Assembly (NCBI RefSeq): GCF_000145235.1
Contig: NC_014391.1
Span: 3,480,001 to 3,544,000 of the forward strand
Length of the DNA: 64,000 bases
Direction of reading: 5' to 3'
Source: Micromonospora aurantiaca ATCC 27029
GTDB taxonomy: Bacteria > Actinomycetota > Actinomycetes > Mycobacteriales > Micromonosporaceae
The first letter of the stretch is position 1, and the number at the start of each line of letters is the position of its first letter. The translations under genes were made by a program, and so were the position numbers. Shown piece after piece: positions 32,949-41,458 of this stretch. The notes below the pieces were generated by a model. That model was not told the DNA's origin and did no database searches. It saw nothing but the letters and a program-made list of their open reading frames with translations.

Positions 32949-35759
32949 TCAGTCCGCCAGCAGCGTCGCCACCGCATGAGCCGTCGCCGGGTGTGCGGCG
33001 AGCAGCACCGACGCCCCGTCACCCGGCGGCGTGCCGCCCTCGGCGAGCGGCTGCCAGCCGCCGGAGCAGCCGAGCAGCGCCGCCACCGCGTCGACCGCCT
33101 CCGGATGGGCTACCAGCAGACCGTGCACCGGACCGGTTCCCGGGGACGGCGCGAGTGGGGTGGACGGGGTGGGCGTGGCCGCCCACGGCGGTGTCCAGGC
33201 GTCCAGCGCGGGCAGCGTGGCGGGGAACGTGCGTTCCGCCTCGCGGACCAGCAGCGGCACCAGCTCCGGGCCGTGCTCGCGCAGTGTGGTGATCAGCGTC
33301 GGCAGCCAGGGCAGCAGCACCGGGTCGGGCAGCCCGGCGAAGGCGGACGACATGGTCTCCACCACGAACGGCGCGAGCCCCGGCACCGGTTCGAGCGCGT
33401 GCACGAAGCCGGACAGGTACTGCGGGAACGCGGGCACCACGAGCGGATTGGCGAGCAGCTCGGCGCACTGTTCGCGCAGTCGCGCCAGCGGCAGCAGGCC
33501 GAGCTGGTGGCGGGCGGCCCAGAGCAGCGCGAGCTTGGCCGGCGCCTCCGGGTGGGCCTGCGCGACGGCCAGTTCGAGCTGGGAGCGGTCGCACCCGAGC
33601 GACAACGCGAGGCTCTCCATGCTGAACAGGAAGCCGAGCATCGCGCCGACCTGCCGTACGCCGGTGGACTCGTCCACGAACGCGGTGGGCAGCAGCGTGC
33701 AGTAGTGGGCGTACCCGGTGGTGACGAACGTCCGGCACCACGCGGGCAGCGCCGGTGTGGTGGTGCGGTGGTGGGCGAGCAGCCGCCGGATGCGGCGCAG
33801 CACCTCCGGCGCGTCGTCCACCGTGCGTTCGGCGGCGAGCAGCTCCACCGCCCGCGCGCCGAGTTCGTCGACCAGGCGAGGGCTGTCCAGCAGCCGGATG
33901 GCGTCCTCGACGGCGGCGAGCGCGCGGGCGGCTGTCGCGTCGGGGCCGCGTACCGCCCGGCGCAGCCGCTGCTCCAGCACCTGTTCGACGGTGACGCCCT
34001 CGTAGCCCAGCTCGATCAGGGCGCGCTGGTTGCGGCCGAGCGCGAGGTCCCAGCTCTCCTGTTCGGAGCGGTGGCCGAGGCGGCGCTCACCCATGATCGG
34101 GCGGACCGCGTCGGCGGGCAGCAGATGCCGCAGCATCCACAGCAGGTCGGAGCAGGGTGCCAGCGCCGGGTCGGCGCGCAGGTCGAGCAGCGCCCGCTGC
34201 ACGGTGCGCCGTTCCAGGTCGAGGCCGAGGGGGCGCAGCCGGTCCAGGACGTCGCGGGCCAGCGGCGGCAGGGAGTCGTACCCGACCTGGCCGACGCGGT
34301 CGCCGCCGAGGAGGATCTCGCAGAGCCGGCGGACGTCGCGGCGGCTGGGCACCACGTCCTTCTCGATGCAGGTCACGGCGGCGTCGGCGAAGTCGTACGG
34401 CGTGGGCCGCGCGCGGTTGCGCATGGTGGCGAGCAGGATCGACGTCTCGAACACGGCGATCGCGTCGGCGGTGCTGGCGAGGTAGCCGTTGCGACGGGCG
34501 AGCCGGACGATGTCGACGCACCAGCCGCGCAGTTCGGCCTCGTCCAGCTCGTCGAGGACGGGCGGGGCGGCGAGGAATCCGCTGAGCCGGTCCGTGGCCG
34601 GGCCGGTCGTGGCCGGCGCGGCGGCGCGGGCCCGGCGGCCCTTCTTCCCGGTACGCTGCCCGGCCAGCCGGTACGGCGTGAGCCGGGTGCGGGCGACAGC
34701 GGCCGTCCAGTTCGCGGCGGCGATGGACACGGTGCCCGGGGCCAGCCCGAACTGCGCCTCGATGGCCGAGTGGCTGGACGGGATGAGGCCGTAACGCCAG
34801 CGGGTGCCGGTGCGCGGGCTGATCGGGAAGTCCGGTGCGGTCGAGTCGAGGCCGAACTGTTCGACCCGGCTGGCGGCGTGGAAGGCGCCGCAGACGTAGA
34901 GGCAGTCGGCCGGGTCGGCGCCGCTTTCGGCGAGGTGCTGTCGCATCCGGGTCCACATGTGGCGTTCGCGGTCCTCGTCGCGTTCGTCGCGGGCGGACCG
35001 GGACGGGCGCAGCCGCCGGAACAGGCTGCCGATCAGCACCATGACCTGGCGGTACGTGTCGTGGTCGGCGTCGGCGAGCGGCCGTTCGACGTACTGGTCC
35101 CACCATTCCGACCAGTGCCGCACCTTGCCGTGGTGCAGCAGGTGGGCCTCCAGTTCGGCGAACCGGGGGCGCAGGTCGCCGATCTCCACGCCGACCGCGT
35201 CGCCGTGCAGTGCCGTGTCGTCGTCGGCGGACGCGGGGGCGGAGTCCGGCCCCGGTGCGGGCCCGGTGTCGTCGCGGGGGGTCCACTGGAAGACGTGGTC
35301 GGTGGAGCGGTCCACGAGCACCAGCTCCACGCCGGGGGTGTCCAGCGCGTACGCGACGGCCTGGTATTCGGCGGACGCCTCGGTGATCGGGGCGACCACG
35401 CTCAGCGGGCTCCACTCGGCGGGGAAGCCGTCGAGTTCGGTGGCGAACGCCTGCACCGCCACCGGCAGCCGGCAGTTGCGCAGCTCGTCGAGCAGGGGGC
35501 GCAGGTCCTCGCAGAGCTCCAGGTAGATCACCTTGGGCGGGCGGGCACGCAGGCGGCGTGCCATGGCCAGCGCCGAGGCGGGGGAGTGGTGACAGACCGG
35601 GAAGATCTCCAGCCGTTCGCGCAGCGCCCTGTCGACGTCGTCGACCATGCCGGTGAGGATGCCGGCGAGCGCGTCCGGGGAGCCGGCGAACGCGGCGGCG
35701 GCGTCGGTGAGCTGGTCGCGCAGCGGACCGAACAGGCCGGTCGGTGCGGGCGCGGTCAT
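32949..35759 (-). CDS. DUF5682 family protein of the MoxR/VWA/SWIM system
   Basis: A 936-residue cytoplasmic protein, last gene of the five-gene unit. The N-terminal part has FPVCHHSPASALAMARRL (residues 53-70), VIYLELCEDLRPLLDEL (77-94), RERHMWTRMRQHL (264-276) and YVCGAFHAASR (288-298). This run of His, Glu, Arg-x-x-x-M and G-x-x-H features resembles the TIKI/TraB/EreA/ChaN-like hydrolase fold (inference). The remaining 600 residues are helical and unassigned. ATG 35759 overlaps the MoxR stop by four bases. Enzyme activity is not shown. Confidence 0.82.
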   Translation of the reverse strand: MTAPAPTGLFGPLRDQLTDAAAAFAGSPDALAGILTGMVDDVDRALRERLEIFPVCHHSPASALAMARRLRARPPKVIYLELCEDLRPLLDELRNCRLPVAVQAFATELDGFPAEWSPLSVVAPITEASAEYQAVAYALDTPGVELVLVDRSTDHVFQWTPRDDTGPAPGPDSAPASADDDTALHGDAVGVEIGDLRPRFAELEAHLLHHGKVRHWSEWWDQYVERPLADADHDTYRQVMVLIGSLFRRLRPSRSARDERDEDRERHMWTRMRQHLAESGADPADCLYVCGAFHAASRVEQFGLDSTAPDFPISPRTGTRWRYGLIPSSHSAIEAQFGLAPGTVSIAAANWTAAVARTRLTPYRLAGQRTGKKGRRARAAAPATTGPATDRLSGFLAAPPVLDELDEAELRGWCVDIVRLARRNGYLASTADAIAVFETSILLATMRNRARPTPYDFADAAVTCIEKDVVPSRRDVRRLCEILLGGDRVGQVGYDSLPPLARDVLDRLRPLGLDLERRTVQRALLDLRADPALAPCSDLLWMLRHLLPADAVRPIMGERRLGHRSEQESWDLALGRNQRALIELGYEGVTVEQVLEQRLRRAVRGPDATAARALAAVEDAIRLLDSPRLVDELGARAVELLAAERTVDDAPEVLRRIRRLLAHHRTTTPALPAWCRTFVTTGYAHYCTLLPTAFVDESTGVRQVGAMLGFLFSMESLALSLGCDRSQLELAVAQAHPEAPAKLALLWAARHQLGLLPLARLREQCAELLANPLVVPAFPQYLSGFVHALEPVPGLAPFVVETMSSAFAGLPDPVLLPWLPTLITTLREHGPELVPLLVREAERTFPATLPALDAWTPPWAATPTPSTPLAPSPGTGPVHGLLVAHPEAVDAVAALLGCSGGWQPLAEGGTPPGDGASVLLAAHPATAHAVATLLAD

Positions 35760-36868
35760 GACAGCGACGCGATCGCCTGGCGGCCGCCGTCGAGGAAGCC
35801 CTCCCAGTCGCCGCCGTCGGCCTTGGCGCGGGGCTCGACCACGCCGTGCAGGTACTTGTTGAGGATGGCCAGGTCCTCCGGGGCGCGGCGGGCCAGCGAG
35901 CCCATCAGTGAGCCGGCGAGCGTCTGCGCGCGCAGGGTGCGGTCGCCGAAGAACTGGCTGTGCAGGATCGCGTCCTCCAGCACGCCGATCTGCTCGGCGG
36001 TGGACAGCGCCGACTCCAGCTTCTCGTCGTCGCTGGTGGCGGCGGACGCGGCGGCGCGCAGGTCGGCGAAGCTCTGCAGCAGGATGTCGAGCAGGGTGGG
36101 CGGGACGTCCAGTTCGATGCGGTGCCGGCGCAGTAGCTCCTCGGTCCGGAAGCGGACGATCTCGGCCTCGCTGCGCTTGTTGGTGACCACCGGGATGCGG
36201 ATGAAGTTGAACCGCCGCTTGAGTGCGGAGGACAGGTCGTTGACGCCCCGGTCGCGGCTGTTGGCGGTGGCGATGACGGAGAAGCCGGGCTTGGCGAAGA
36301 CGATGTTGTCGTGGTCCAGTTCCGGGATCGAGACGTACTTCTCGGACAGGATCGAGATCAGCGCGTCCTGGACGTCGCTGGTGGAGCGGGTCAGCTCCTC
36401 GAACCGGCCGATCACGCCCTGCTCCATGGCGGTCATGATCGGCGAGGGGATCATCGACTCGCGCGACTGGCCCCGGGCGATGACCATGGAGACGTTCCAC
36501 GAGTACTTGATGTGGTCCTCGGTGGTGCCGGCGGTGCCCTGCACGACGAGCGTGGAGTTGCGGCAGACAGCGGCGGCGAGCAGCTCGGCGAGCCAGCTCT
36601 TGCCGGTGCCCGGGTCGCCGATGAGCAGCAGGCCGCGGTCGGAGGCGAGCGTGACGATGCTGCGTTCGACGAAGCTGCGGTCGCCGAACCACTTCTGCGG
36701 GATCGCCCGGTCGAGGCCGTCGGCGCGTTCGGAGCCGAGCACGAACAGCCGGACCATGCGAGGGCTCAGCCGCCAGGAGAACGGCTTCGGTCCGGTGTCG
36801 ACGGATTCGAGGTAGGCCAGCTCGTCGGCGTACTTGACCTCGGCGGGGGCGCGGAGCATGTCGGACAT
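35756..36868 (-). CDS. MoxR-type AAA+ ATPase
   Basis: A 370-residue ATPase. Walker A is GDPGTGKS (84-91). The Walker B position reads IGRFEELTR: the usual Asp-Glu is Glu-Glu (157-158). Sensor 1 is ATANSRDRGVNDL (N203) and the arginine finger region is LKRRFNF (R218/R219). MoxR ATPases act as chaperone-like motors on partners bearing VWA domains; the VWA gene is directly upstream. ATG 36868 has AGGAG about 11 bases before it, and a second ATG at 36859 is possible. It overlaps the DUF5682 gene by four bases. Confidence 0.9.
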   Translation of the reverse strand: MSDMLRAPAEVKYADELAYLESVDTGPKPFSWRLSPRMVRLFVLGSERADGLDRAIPQKWFGDRSFVERSIVTLASDRGLLLIGDPGTGKSWLAELLAAAVCRNSTLVVQGTAGTTEDHIKYSWNVSMVIARGQSRESMIPSPIMTAMEQGVIGRFEELTRSTSDVQDALISILSEKYVSIPELDHDNIVFAKPGFSVIATANSRDRGVNDLSSALKRRFNFIRIPVVTNKRSEAEIVRFRTEELLRRHRIELDVPPTLLDILLQSFADLRAAASAATSDDEKLESALSTAEQIGVLEDAILHSQFFGDRTLRAQTLAGSLMGSLARRAPEDLAILNKYLHGVVEPRAKADGGDWEGFLDGGRQAIASLS

Positions 36869-36882
36869 CAGGGGATGCTCTC

Positions 36883-38208
36883 CTAGGTGAGGAAGTTCTT
36901 CAGCTCGGCGACGAGCTTGCGGATGTGGCCGGAGATGACGGGGGTGCCGAGGTCCTTGAGGCGCTGCCGGAACCAGGGGTTGACGCTCTGGTTGCCGGAG
37001 CTGTTGACCGAGCCGACCGGGATGAACTTCACGCCGGAGCGGTGCACGGCCTCGATGCCGTCGAACAGCGGCTGGGACCTGTCGAACTCGTAGAAGTCGG
37101 AGATCCAGACCATGACCGTGTTCCGCGGCTCGACGATCTTGGGGCGGGCCAGGGCCATGGCGACCGGGCCGTCGTTGCCGCCGCCGAGCTTGGTGCGCAG
37201 CAGCACCTCGAACGGGTCGTGCACCCACGGGGTGAGGTCCAGCGCCCGGGTGTCGTACGCGATCAGGTGCACGTCGACCTTGGGCAGGCCGGCGAAGATC
37301 GAGGCGAGGATGGTGCAGTTGACCATCGAGTCGACCATCGAGCCGGACTGGTCGACCACCACGATCAGCCGCGACGGGGTGGTCCGCCGGGCGGTCTGCC
37401 GGTAGTAGAGCCGGTCGACGTAGAGGCGCTCGTCGTCCGGGCTCCAGTTGGTCAGGTTCTGCCAGATGGTGCGGTCCAGGTCGAGGTTGCGGAAGACCCG
37501 CTTGGGCGGCACGGACCGGTCGACGGCCCCGACGGTGGCCTGCGCGACCTGGGTACGCAGCACCTCGGCGACCTGGTCGACGTAGCGGCGGATCAGTGAC
37601 TTGGCGTTCGCGAGCGCCACCCCGGACAGGTTGGACTTGTCCCGCAGGAGCTGCTCGATCAGGGACATGCTCGGGGTCAGCCGGGCGGCGAGCGCCGGGT
37701 CGGCGAGCACTTCGCGCAGCCGCATCCGGGCCACCAGGTCACCCTCCAGCCCGGCGAGCGTGGCACCCAGGCCGGTGCCCTCGCGGCGCAGCTCACCGGG
37801 CTGCGCGCCGCACGCCTGCTCGAACCAGCCGGCGTCGGCCTGCCAGCGGGCGAGCTGCCCGGCGCTGACCTCGCCGCCGCCGGTGGCGAACACGTTGAGC
37901 AGCAGCTTGGACGCCAGCGCGGCGCGGCGTACCTCGGTCTCGGCCGGCTGGAACGGCCCGGCGGCGGCTGTGGTGTCGTCGCCGGGGGTGAGCAGGCCGC
38001 GCAGCTCGCCGGCGAGGGCGGGGAAGCGCTGCACGACGGTGTCGACGGAGACGGCCGGGTCCAGCAGGGCGGCCGGCAGGCCGAGGTCGTCGACGACGGT
38101 GACGCTCGCCGACTCCAGGCCGGGCTGCTCGTCGGGGTGGAACAGGCGGGCGAGCAGCCGCCAGTAGAGCACCTGGCGGCGGTTGGCGTGGGTGCGGTCC
38201 TCGGTCAT
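36883..38208 (-). CDS. VWA domain-containing protein (MoxR partner)
   Basis: A 441-residue cytoplasmic protein. Residues 1-270 are mostly helical. The C-terminal VWA domain starts at about 279 (SRLIVVVDQSGSMVDSMVN) with a complete DxSxS metal site (D286, S288, S290); a Thr usually coordinating from the next loop appears replaced within LGGGNDGPVAMALA, and MVWISDFYEF supplies the last Asp. In other MoxR systems this domain presents substrates to the ATPase. It overlaps the gene upstream by four bases and lies 14 bases before the MoxR start. Confidence 0.9.
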   Translation of the reverse strand: MTEDRTHANRRQVLYWRLLARLFHPDEQPGLESASVTVVDDLGLPAALLDPAVSVDTVVQRFPALAGELRGLLTPGDDTTAAAGPFQPAETEVRRAALASKLLLNVFATGGGEVSAGQLARWQADAGWFEQACGAQPGELRREGTGLGATLAGLEGDLVARMRLREVLADPALAARLTPSMSLIEQLLRDKSNLSGVALANAKSLIRRYVDQVAEVLRTQVAQATVGAVDRSVPPKRVFRNLDLDRTIWQNLTNWSPDDERLYVDRLYYRQTARRTTPSRLIVVVDQSGSMVDSMVNCTILASIFAGLPKVDVHLIAYDTRALDLTPWVHDPFEVLLRTKLGGGNDGPVAMALARPKIVEPRNTVMVWISDFYEFDRSQPLFDGIEAVHRSGVKFIPVGSVNSSGNQSVNPWFRQRLKDLGTPVISGHIRKLVAELKNFLT

Positions 38209-39602
38209 CGGCGCAGCAACCGTCCCGCGCGTTCGCGCAGCACCGCCACGGCGTCGCCCGCCTTGGCCTCGGCCTTGGCCGTCTTCGGGTCGGTGACGCC
38301 GCAGGCCCAGTCGCCGTTGTGCGCCTCGACCGTCTGCCGCTTGACGGTGGCCCGGACGGCGAGGGGTTGCAGCAGCCAGCGGTCGTCGTCCCAGCGGAGC
38401 AGGCCGAGGCAGGCGGTGGAGGCGGCGACGAGCGCGGGGGCGAGCGGACCGGCGGCGGGCAGCCGGTCGGTGGCCAGGTGCAGGGACCGGCCGTCGAGGT
38501 CGAGCGCCGGGACGCCGTCGTCGTCGCGGACGGTGTAGCCCTCGACCAGTACCGGTTCGGCGATCGCGGCGGGGTGGCGCAGCAGCGGTGGGGTCGCCGC
38601 CGCCGTGGCGCCGGCCAGCAGCACCCGGGCCGTGGCGAACGGGTCGGCCGGCTCGCCGAGGGCGGCCCGCTCCTCGGCCCAGCGCAGGTCCGCGCCGTGG
38701 GCGGTCAGATCGGTGACGGTGATCGCCCGCCGCTGGGCCAGGGCGTTGAGCAGGACCGGGTACGCCTCCAGCAGCCGCCAGCCGGCCGGGCCGACGATGG
38801 TGGCGACCTTCGCCGCGACCACTGTGACCCGGACGAGCCGGGGCGCGCCGCCCCCGGCCGGTTCGAGCAGTGCGTGCACCTGCGCCTGGAACGCGGTGTC
38901 GTGCTCGTGCAGGTCGACGCCGAGGGGCAGCAGCCGGCCGGACACCGGCTCGCCGGGCGCGGTCTCGCCGTGCGCGCCGAGGGTGAGCAGGACGGCGCGG
39001 GTCCACAGGTCGGCCCACCGGCGGGCGGGCACCTGTGGCAGCGACGCCACCGGCAGGGCGGCGCGCAGTTCGGCGGCGAGGCCGTCGAGGAGCACCGCGA
39101 CGCGGCGTGACGCCGGGTCGGCGAGTGCGGCCTCGACCGGCGCGGCGGCGGCGGAGAGCAGTTCGTGGTCGGTGCCGCGCCAGCCGGCGAGCGCCAGTTC
39201 GTGCAGCCAGGCCCGCGCGCCGGCCAGGGCGGGCGGGGAGACGGCGGTGTCGTCCGGTGCGGCGGTCCACGCCGCGCGGGGCCGGCCGAGCGCGGTGTCG
39301 AGGCGGTCGAGCAGGGCGTCGTGTGCCGCGCCGAGCAGCGCGGCACGGGCCCCGGCGAGGGCGGCCAGGTGGTCCTCGGCGAGCGCGCCGGTGCGCACCG
39401 CGCCGGCCGCCGCGCCCGCCCGTTCGGCCAGCGGCGTGCCGCCGACCGCGGCGGCCAGCGCGGCCCAGGCGGCGGCGCCGGGCTCGTCGGCGCGGGCCAG
39501 CCCGGCGGTGAGCGTGTCGTCGGCGCGGTCGACGACGGCGAGCGTCTCGGCCAGCCCGGGGATCGTCCCGTCGTGGAGCCGGGTCAGGTGCGCGGCGAGC
39601 AT
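38205..39602 (-). CDS. Unknown protein of the MoxR/VWA/SWIM system (465 residues)
   Basis: I do not recognise a named family. The protein is Ala/Leu-rich and mainly helical, with no signal or membrane segment. The middle has VPARRWADLWTRAVLLTLG and the second half changes to mixed beta character (VRVTVVAAKVATIVG, LVEGYTVRDDDGVPALDLDG, RWLLQPLAVRATVKRQTVE). It ends with a Lys/Arg-rich stretch (AKAEAKAGDAVAVLRERAG). Its one-base overlap with the SWIM gene and four-base overlap with the VWA gene show it is a fixed component. It could be an adaptor or the substrate of the ATPase. Confidence 0.75.
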   Translation of the reverse strand: MLAAHLTRLHDGTIPGLAETLAVVDRADDTLTAGLARADEPGAAAWAALAAAVGGTPLAERAGAAAGAVRTGALAEDHLAALAGARAALLGAAHDALLDRLDTALGRPRAAWTAAPDDTAVSPPALAGARAWLHELALAGWRGTDHELLSAAAAPVEAALADPASRRVAVLLDGLAAELRAALPVASLPQVPARRWADLWTRAVLLTLGAHGETAPGEPVSGRLLPLGVDLHEHDTAFQAQVHALLEPAGGGAPRLVRVTVVAAKVATIVGPAGWRLLEAYPVLLNALAQRRAITVTDLTAHGADLRWAEERAALGEPADPFATARVLLAGATAAATPPLLRHPAAIAEPVLVEGYTVRDDDGVPALDLDGRSLHLATDRLPAAGPLAPALVAASTACLGLLRWDDDRWLLQPLAVRATVKRQTVEAHNGDWACGVTDPKTAKAEAKAGDAVAVLRERAGRLLRR

Positions 39603-40111
39603 CAGCGCACCCCCGCCGTGGCCGGGAACCAGTGCAGCTCCGGCACCGCCGTGGTGGCGGCCGGGACCTCGAGGTAGGCCAGGTGGCGCAGGAAGCGGCT
39701 GAACACCACGGCGGCCGGGCCCGGCTCGTGCCGCGCGTCGGTGCGGGCCAGCAGGGCGGTGCCGTTGTCGACGCCGTCGCCCACGTCCACCCGCAGGTAG
39801 CGGGCGACCTGTGTGACGCCGTACTGCAGCACCGCCTCGTCGGCCAGCGCGTGCAGGTGCTTGCAGAGCATGGTGCCGCGCAGCCCGCCGCAGGGCCGGT
39901 TGTTGTTGGTGCTGCAGTTGACCGCGTGCGTGCCGGCGGTCACCGAGGAGACGTAGACGCGTTCCACGTCGGAGCCGCTGGACACCACCCCCTGCAACCG
40001 CCCGTCGGCCAGTTCCACGAAGGGCACCTTGGCGAGCTTGCGGGCCCGCGCGGGCGGCGCCACCCGCAGCACGCTGCGCCGTCGCCACGAGGCGTCGTTC
40101 GCCTCCGTCAT
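39602..40111 (-). CDS. SWIM zinc-finger protein (first gene of MoxR/VWA/DUF5682 unit)
   Basis: A 169-residue protein. The zinc site has C66, C74 and C83-K-H85 in segments NCSTNNNRPCGG and TMLCKHLHALA, fitting a SWIM-type C-x-n-C-x-H pattern with a long insertion. SWIM domains bind DNA or protein. The N-terminal part (RKLAKVPFVELADGRLQGVV) is typical of SWIM proteins. ATG 40111 is used; a longer frame from 40195 adds an Arg-rich leader with no support. The stop shares one base with the next start (TGATG). Confidence 0.83.
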   Translation of the reverse strand: MTEANDASWRRRSVLRVAPPARARKLAKVPFVELADGRLQGVVSSGSDVERVYVSSVTAGTHAVNCSTNNNRPCGGLRGTMLCKHLHALADEAVLQYGVTQVARYLRVDVGDGVDNGTALLARTDARHEPGPAAVVFSRFLRHLAYLEVPAATTAVPELHWFPATAGVR

Positions 40112-40330
40112 CTTCCCGACCTCCCCGCCGGCCGGCCGCCGCCGGGCACGCCGGGACGCCGTCGCCGGCCGTGATCCGTGCCGCTGTGACGACAAGGATC
40201 ATGGACCACGGGTACGACAGGAGCGCCGTCGCGGGCGGCGCCGGGAATACCGTGCGGCCCGGCGGGTAGAGGAGGGCGTGATCGAGCCCGAGCCGTCGTG
40301 CCCGCGATGCCCGGGCGGGCGGCCGGTGCC

Positions 40331-41458
40331 GTGACCCCCGTGGCTCCGGCGGCGCGCCGGGAGGTCCGGGAGGCGTACGAGCGGCTGCGCCGGTACTTCA
40401 TCGTGGCCCTCCAGGCCGGTCTGGCCGCCGGTCTGGCCTGGTACGTGGCCAGCACGCTGCTCAAGAATCCGCAGCCGCTGTTCGCGCCGGCGGCGGCGGT
40501 GGGCACCATCGCCGCGGCGATCGGCAACCGGATCCGGCGGACGGCCGAACTGCTGGGTGGCGTGATCCTCGGAGTGCTGGTCGGCGACCTGCTCATCAAG
40601 CTGATCGGGGCCGGTCCGGTGCAGACCGGCCTGGTGGTCGCGCTCGCCATCTCGCTGGCGGTGGTGATCCGGGGCAGCGGCGCCGTGATGGTGCAGGCCG
40701 GCAGCACCGCGGTCCTGCTGGGCACCGTGGAGCCCAACGCGCCCGACCTGGCGGTGCCGCGTACGGCGAACGCGCTGGTGGGCGGCGGGGTGGCGGTGGT
40801 GGTGGCGCTGCTGTTGTTGCCGCTGAATCCGGTCCGGGTGGTGCACCGCGCCGCCGGGCCCACGCTGGACCTGTTCGCCAACGAGCTGACGGCGGCGGCG
40901 AAGGCGCTCGCCGCCCGGGACGCCGGGGCGGCGGAGGCGTCGCTGGGCCGGCTGGAGGCGGCCGAGGTCGAGCGGAAGCAGACCACCGAGATCGTCGCGG
41001 CGGCCCGGGAGGTGACGTCGCTGTCGCCGTGGCGGTGGCGGCGCCGGGCCCAGTTGCGCCGCTACGAGAACGCCGCCGTCCACCTGGAGCTGGCGTACAC
41101 GAACAGCCGCAACATGGTCCGCCGGGTGGTCGCGTTGCTGGAGGCCCGGGAGCCGGTTCCCCCGGCCCTGCCGGCCGGGGTCGAGGCGTTCGGGCAGTCG
41201 CTGCGGCTGCTGCACCGTGACTTCCTGGCCGGGCGGCCGCCGGACATCGCCCGGGCGCGGGCACGGGAGGCCGCGCAGGATGCCGGCCGGGCGCGGGCGG
41301 CGGGGCTGGGCTTCTCCGGCACGATCGTGGCCTCGCAGCTGCTCATCGTGGTCGGCGAGTTGCTCCAGGCGTCCGGCATGACCAAGATCGAGGCGGACCG
41401 GACGGCCGGTGTCTGCGAGCATCGCCCGGACTCCCGCCCGGACCCAAACGACCGTTAA
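40331..41458 (+). CDS. FUSC/aromatic-acid-exporter-like membrane protein
   Basis: A 375-residue protein with an N-terminal half of about five or six membrane helices (YFIVALQAGLAAGLAWYVAS, then PAAAVGTIAAAIGNR, LLGGVILGVLVGDLLIKLIG, GLVVALAISLAVVIRG, ALVGGGVAVVVALLLLPLNP) and a cytoplasmic helical half. This matches the N-terminal FUSC/ArAE arrangement. The start is uncertain: GTG 40331 overlaps a short upstream frame by the GTGA pattern, and GTG 40298 lacks a ribosome-binding site. Its stop TAA is part of the next gene's -10 element. The substrate is unknown. Confidence 0.75.
   Translation: MTPVAPAARREVREAYERLRRYFIVALQAGLAAGLAWYVASTLLKNPQPLFAPAAAVGTIAAAIGNRIRRTAELLGGVILGVLVGDLLIKLIGAGPVQTGLVVALAISLAVVIRGSGAVMVQAGSTAVLLGTVEPNAPDLAVPRTANALVGGGVAVVVALLLLPLNPVRVVHRAAGPTLDLFANELTAAAKALAARDAGAAEASLGRLEAAEVERKQTTEIVAAAREVTSLSPWRWRRRAQLRRYENAAVHLELAYTNSRNMVRRVVALLEAREPVPPALPAGVEAFGQSLRLLHRDFLAGRPPDIARARAREAAQDAGRARAAGLGFSGTIVASQLLIVVGELLQASGMTKIEADRTAGVCEHRPDSRPDPNDR

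Follow-up and report, generated by a model that had tools for sequence, protein, structure and literature searches.

The window analyzed here is a 64,000-nt stretch of the Micromonospora aurantiaca ATCC 27029 genome, and it contains a five-gene operon that runs from 40111 to 32949 on the minus strand (all positions are those of the window). Genes 1 to 5 encode a SWIM-like zinc-finger protein, a protein without a known family, a VWA protein, a MoxR AAA+ ATPase, and a DUF5682 protein. We find that these genes are a real, discrete, conserved unit. On homology, the set is a divergent variant of the known, uncharacterized YehLMPQ kind of gene set and not a brand-new kind of system. We further propose, with somewhat less than even confidence, that the products work as one machine in which a MoxR/VWA motor acts on DUF5682, a putative hydrolase, and is guided by a SWIM-OB recognition module.

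A Conserved Five-Gene Operon

An earlier reading of this DNA, hereafter the original prediction, had listed five same-strand genes with tight junctions. All five open reading frames (ORFs) were found uninterrupted at the predicted coordinates, all on the minus strand. Read 5′ to 3′, genes 1 and 2 overlap by 1 bp and genes 2 and 3 by 4 bp, a gap of 14 bp separates genes 3 and 4, and genes 4 and 5 overlap by 4 bp, also as predicted. The genes are as follows.

39602..40111, minus strand: gene 1, first of the operon, SWIM-like zinc-finger protein of 169 aa (P0001; ORF, 77-member alignment)
38205..39602, minus strand: gene 2, family-less protein of 465 aa (P0002), helical N-terminal half plus two predicted OB-like beta domains (AlphaFold2, Foldseek)
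36883..38208, minus strand: gene 3, VWA_CoxE domain protein of 441 aa (P0003) related to E. coli YehP (Pfam 6.8e-29)
35756..36868, minus strand: gene 4, MoxR AAA+ ATPase of 370 aa (P0004), YehL subfamily (AAA_5 3.2e-36)
32949..35759, minus strand: gene 5, DUF5682-family protein of 936 aa (P0005) related to E. coli YehM, with an alpha/beta domain at the N terminus and a helical repeat at the C terminus (PF18934 matches of orthologues)

A species-level genome collection was scanned with gene 5, yielding at least 551 stretches that encode a relative. Neighborhoods were counted in the best 80 loci, chosen by similarity from named actinomycete genomes and spanning Micromonospora, Salinispora, Actinoplanes, Nonomuraea, Streptosporangium, Actinomadura, and others. 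Every one of these loci with upstream DNA present showed the order SWIM-unknown-VWA-MoxR-DUF5682 on one strand, the exceptions being contig ends. The junction between genes 1 and 2 was −1 bp in 69 of 75 loci, that between genes 2 and 3 was −4 bp in 49 of 71, and that between MoxR and DUF5682 was −4 bp in 59 of 79, while the VWA-MoxR junction was typically about 12 bp. Because the same junctions recur across named loci, the operon spacing is not due to chance. The predicted co-translation of the genes as one unit is supported. No other flanking family was common to more than 12 of the 80 loci.

Since the best 80 loci had been picked by similarity, we added a second sample of 395 genomes spread evenly over the class, with the N-terminal 350 aa of gene 5 as the query. 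Gene 1 was present in 36 of these genomes; 35 of them, and no others, also had the gene 5 N-domain, and the two matches lay 4.3–6.7 kb apart. The sole genome with gene 1 only is an 87%-complete draft. The Fisher p value for this co-occurrence (2.3e-49) overstates the significance, as the sample includes related, non-independent genomes; what matters is the concordance. MoxR and DUF5682 were well conserved between genera. The original prediction had stated that such sets recur in actinomycetes, which is supported. A failure of the five genes to stay together in other genomes, which it had named as a refutation, was not seen.

Kinship with E. coli YehLMPQ

E. coli K-12 carries the gene series yehI(DUF4132)-yehK-yehL(MoxR)-yehM-yehP(VWA)-yehQ(SWIM). 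By sequence homology, the MoxR, VWA, and DUF5682 proteins of the window correspond to YehL, YehP, and YehM, respectively. The gene 3 family profile matched YehP at 2.6e-50. The gene 4 family profile scored 272 bits on YehL and 273–347 bits on the MoxR proteins of the related types described below, and less than 12 bits on 14 other AAA_5 ATPases tested from the same genome. These scores place gene 4 in the YehL subfamily of MoxR AAA+ ATPases. YehL is one named MoxR subfamily (PMC3893208).

The same M. aurantiaca genome contains a second, canonical yehI-yehLMPQ-type operon beside an FtsX-type permease (C1:3862000-3881000). This set comprises a WGR-DUF4132 protein, a MoxR, a DUF5682 protein (PF18934 6e-100), a VWA protein with 59% identity to YehP, and a SWIM protein that resembles YehQ. 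Sequence comparison separates four paralogous types in actinomycetes, several of which occur per genome. Type I is the canonical yehI-yehLMPQ-like set, type II consists of MoxR-DUF5682-VWA plus a nearby SWIM protein (PF04434), type III pairs MoxR with a DUF5682-VWA fusion, and the fourth is the window type. SWIM proteins accompany types I and II. The type III fusion (loci L146 and L147; genomes G200 and G063) is one frame of about 1350–1650 codons with Pfam matches of 8e-215 (DUF5682) and 3e-64 (VWA). In Salinispora pacifica and S. cortesiana (L036:9953-22261 and L040), window-type and type I operons lie in tandem on the same strand, with the type I operon second.

All types share the core trio of MoxR, DUF5682, and VWA proteins. 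E. coli YehLMPQ and type I resemble the window set in holding homologous versions of the three in one operon, beside a SWIM protein whose possible counterpart in the window set is the SWIM-like gene 1 product. They differ from it in their order, MoxR-DUF5682-VWA-SWIM, in their one long SWIM protein (YehQ), and in the DUF4132 gene upstream, whereas the window type has the order SWIM-unknown-VWA-MoxR-DUF5682, with a small SWIM-like protein and an OB-like one. Because the gene order differs and a single long YehQ is absent, we file the window set as a variant and not as YehLMPQ itself. Type II combines the trio with a SWIM protein; its SWIM gene lies on the other strand or further upstream and is a single gene with a classical CxC...CxH finger. 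Type III differs by carrying DUF5682 and VWA in one chain. The MoxR proteins of types II and III each form a separate clade.

A MoxR tree separated the four types, with about one change per column between the window type and the others and RavA far outside the YehL group. Type I MoxR proteins are about 40–45% identical to the window MoxR. Window-type MoxR and VWA profiles matched all other types strongly, the window-type DUF5682 profile matched them weakly (7–51 bits), and the window-type profiles of genes 1 and 2 gave no match to them. The original prediction had called the set its best candidate for an undescribed system. The five-gene form is indeed distinct, but its core genes had already been seen as E. 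coli yehL/M/P/Q, with YehL a named subfamily.

Features of the Five Proteins

The following sites and regions were located in the operon and upstream of it.

39857..39916, minus strand: gene 1, putative zinc ligands C66-x7-C74-x8-C83-x-H85 (all four invariant, 77/77)
38313..38960, minus strand: gene 2, residues 215-430, two OB-like domains predicted in tandem (order of the strands in the model; Foldseek)
37339..37353, minus strand: gene 3, DxSxS motif (DQSGS) of the metal ion-dependent adhesion site (MIDAS) (74/74)
37174-37176, minus strand: gene 3, residue 345, the MIDAS Thr position, here Asn (N345; family alignment)
36596..36619, minus strand: gene 4, Walker A GDPGTGKS (invariant, 80/80)
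36395..36409, minus strand: gene 4, Walker B region GRFEE, with FEE as in YehL (invariant, 80/80)
35580..35591, minus strand: gene 5, HHSP motif (H57 H58 S59 P60), first active-site-like motif (H57, H58, and P60 invariant in all types)
34878..34892, minus strand: gene 5, second conserved His motif, CGAFH, in which G291 and H294 are the same in every type
40112..40297, no strand: 186-bp divergent intergenic region, presumed site of the operon promoter from its position between gene 1 and a plus-strand gene (40298-41458)

The predicted MoxR and VWA labels agreed with the domain matches (AAA_5 3e-36, VWA_CoxE 7e-29). The pairing of the two as a putative motor is likewise supported. In the gene 4 family, a sensor Asn and an RR pair were invariant in 80 of 80 members along with Walker A, and FEE stands where DE is usual in Walker B. 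In the gene 3 family, an SD motif was invariant in addition to DQSGS, and position 345 was dimorphic, 39 of the 74 members having Thr and 35 having Asn. An unannotated human-fecal phage contig (MT835988.1, L183:3980-4816) gave a weak match to gene 3, a VWA protein with 27% identity.

HMMER gave no PF18934 match for the window gene 5 itself. Five of nine close orthologues did match this family above its curated cut-off (best 2.2e-33), as did those in G012 and G273, which scored 97–105 bits. As HMMER is silent on the window protein although an orthologue about 84% identical to it scores about 97 bits, family searches can miss window-type DUF5682 proteins. A relative in Streptomyces fungicidicus is labeled "DUF5682 family protein" by NCBI, and by homology the predicted DUF5682 label is correct. 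Across the four types and YehM, 22 residues of the N-domain were invariant, including H57, H58, P60, E81, E131, D150, E225, R264, E265, G291, and H294. Conservation of these His, Glu, and Arg residues points to DUF5682 being an enzyme. The pattern resembles that of the Tiki/TraB/ChaN/EreA superfamily, and two DUF5682 relatives gave Pfam ChaN matches below threshold (0.008 and 0.016). From the motif pattern and these sub-threshold ChaN/Tiki matches, the hydrolase role suggested in the original prediction is plausible, putatively as a Tiki/ChaN-like metal enzyme. The structural model of gene 5 was confident in parts only (mean predicted local distance difference test score, pLDDT, of 71), with a helical repeat as its C-terminal half. 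Foldseek searches of the full model against PDB and viral libraries returned only helical-repeat noise from that half, and the N-domain profile returned only repeat-protein noise from PDB sequences.

Genes 1 and 2 matched nothing in Pfam, NCBIfam, or PADLOC, and gene 2 had no PDB sequence match. The gene 1 family follows the pattern C-x7-C-x7-10-C-x-H, in which the first CxC of the classical SWIM finger (CxC...CxH) is widened to C-x7-C. This pattern aligned weakly with the finger of type II SWIM proteins (CxC...CxH; hhalign P = 0.011). With no Pfam SWIM match, the predicted SWIM label comes solely from the invariant C/C/CxH pattern. A finger for nucleic acid or protein, as had been suggested, is plausible. 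The AlphaFold2 model of gene 2 (pLDDT 91.6) has a helical N-terminal half and a beta-rich C-terminal half, the latter predicted to form two OB-like barrels. Its top Foldseek matches were mostly OB proteins (HIN-200, CST, SSB, and RPA), the best PDB fold match being the HIN-DNA structure 8i6k (E 1.9e-3, probability 1.00, low TM-score). Genes 1 and 2 aligned with type II SWIM proteins at plausible, collinear places. Since these hhalign matches were non-significant (P 0.011 and 0.1), reading genes 1 and 2 as a split YehQ is only a guess.

Comparison with Other MoxR Systems

MoxR ATPases usually pair with a VWA protein, and the metal site of the latter is believed to hold the substrate. In the NorQD pair, the VWA domain inserts a finger into the MoxR pore, a linker is twisted as ATP is hydrolyzed, and the partner is remodeled (PMC13036017). 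NorQ/NorD, CbbQ/CbbO, and RavA/ViaA share with the window set an AAA+ MoxR motor and a VWA partner, and the motor principle is likely common to them (PMC13036017). They differ in belonging to other MoxR subfamilies, in lacking DUF5682, SWIM-like, and OB-like partners, and in having clients that are known or partly known. The vWA-MoxR-VMAP and beta-propeller ternary conflict systems (PMC7159879) likewise hold MoxR and VWA in a fixed operon, with several per genome, in filamentous bacteria. The window set differs in having no VMAP, STAND/iSTAND, FtsH, or beta-propeller third component and no effector-associated domains, and the bpMoxR model reached only E 0.098 on the window proteins. Methylation-associated defense (MADS) also uses a MoxR-type ATPase. 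The mad8 match was weak (5e-5), and no other MADS model in PADLOC matched any of the five proteins. In its main text, the eLife survey of vWA-MoxR conflict systems is silent on SWIM, YehL, and DUF56xx (PMC7159879). Within the literature searched, neither a mention of DUF5682 nor functional work on YehM, YehP, or YehQ was found; subscription papers were thinly covered there, so such work could exist.

Gain, Loss, and Surroundings

Among 25 same-genus genomes, 12 had a gene 5 match, the window's own included and one of them decayed. In one relative (G009:C68:11500-24500, L185), both flanks of the operon are collinear with the window at 82–90% identity, and the site holds 8 kb of other DNA (L185 2400-10378) with a PucR-type regulator, an FAD enzyme, and siderophore-uptake genes. 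In the decayed copy (G013:C1:4563000-4576000, L190), genes 1–3 are gone, MoxR is cut to residues 227–370, gene 5 is interrupted, and transposases lie at both breaks. The patchy presence, the replaced site, and this decay mark the operon as accessory. On plasmids, window-type gene 5 was found in only five records, mostly giant replicons, and no window-type DUF5682 relative was found in the phages searched. PADLOC gave no convincing match to the five-gene set. It returned a similar handful of matches for the 102 nearest and 102 more distant neighbors; defense genes were not enriched near the operon, and these scans gave no sign of a defense-island setting.

Proposed Machine and Alternatives

We consider it possible, a little short of an even chance, that the five products form the machine named at the outset. 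The proposal draws on the homologies, on the conserved linkage, order, and coupling of the genes, and on the type III fusion; from these we infer the mechanism. By analogy with NorQD, a MoxR hexamer and the VWA protein would form an ATP-driven remodeling motor. The VWA protein would hold DUF5682 as its direct partner, because type III fuses the two. The output would come from the N-terminal HHSP...E...GxxH domain of DUF5682, acting as a metal-dependent hydrolase of the Tiki/ChaN/erythromycin-esterase sort. The SWIM-like and helical/OB-like proteins may jointly stand in for the one long SWIM protein (YehQ) found in other types and serve as a recognition module whose target is probably nucleic acid. 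Once this target is recognized, ATP-driven remodeling would activate or release DUF5682. Activation of DUF5682 by the motor is our best guess, with loading of its metal by the motor as the main rival. A bolder version, in which the SWIM-like and OB-like proteins sense a nucleic-acid state and MoxR/VWA fires a DUF5682 enzyme that is a new Tiki/ChaN-like branch, is unlikely.

Several results weigh against the proposed machine. Type III yielded no SWIM protein, and hhalign comparisons of genes 1 and 2 with YehQ or type II SWIM proteins were not convincing. The OB assignment of gene 2 rests on weak Foldseek scores with low TM values. The DUF5682 N-domain has no PDB fold match and a mediocre model, and the window VWA protein has Asn at a MIDAS position that is normally Thr.

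Among the alternatives, MoxR/VWA could be a cofactor-insertion chaperone that matures DUF5682, or a target encoded elsewhere, by inserting metal or heme, as NorQD does with iron for nitric oxide reductase. This is the role of the best-characterized MoxR-VWA pairs (PMC13036017, PMC9976466). Heme-binding ChaN is the only family weakly matched by DUF5682 relatives, and canonical type I adjoins WGR-DUF4132, a MolR-like protein (PMC8533742). However, no dedicated metalloenzyme gene was common to the flanks of the best 80 loci, and insertion leaves the SWIM-like and OB-like proteins without a role; we regard it as rather unlikely. In a general stress or respiratory-complex chaperone like RavA-ViaA, the client would be encoded elsewhere. 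YehL and RavA together make up the MoxR complement of E. coli (PMC3893208), and yehI-yehQ are among the deletions of the genome-reduced E. coli strain DGF-298 (PMC10652928), so the role is accessory. With RavA very distant from the YehL group on the MoxR tree, and RavA-ViaA devoid of a DUF5682 or SWIM partner, a chaperone of this sort is very unlikely. Five functionally separate genes lying adjacent by chance are hardly credible at all: conserved order, strand, junctions, and co-occurrence over many genera contradict it, and no supporting point was found.

The original prediction had also raised a conflict-system role. As an anti-phage or conflict system in the vWA-MoxR ternary sense, the SWIM-OB module would sense foreign nucleic acid and DUF5682 would be the toxic effector. 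The patchy presence within the genus, the transposase-associated decay in one relative, occasional plasmid carriage, the several paralogous types per genome, and the nucleic-acid-like domains are consistent with such a role. Beyond this patchiness and domain flavor, nothing speaks for it. Against it stand the PADLOC results, with near neighbors no richer in defense models than far ones, and the relative that carries siderophore-uptake genes at the same site. Effector swapping is not seen either, as all five genes are fixed and MoxR and DUF5682 are well conserved across genera. We consider a defense role improbable, and this part of the original prediction gained no positive support.

The putative YehL-type MoxR machine is present in E. 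coli K-12 and many actinomycetes, sometimes with several copies per genome. The four architectures, the DUF5682-VWA fusion, and the fixed five-gene form offer a concrete candidate complex and residues for study. If nucleic-acid gating of the proposed machine were true, it would be a new class of signaling or defense machine, occurring in four architectures in bacteria as far apart as E. coli and mycelial actinomycetes. Should DUF5682 prove to be a hydrolase under the control of the MoxR motor, the orphan YehL ATPase subfamily would be linked to a defined output.

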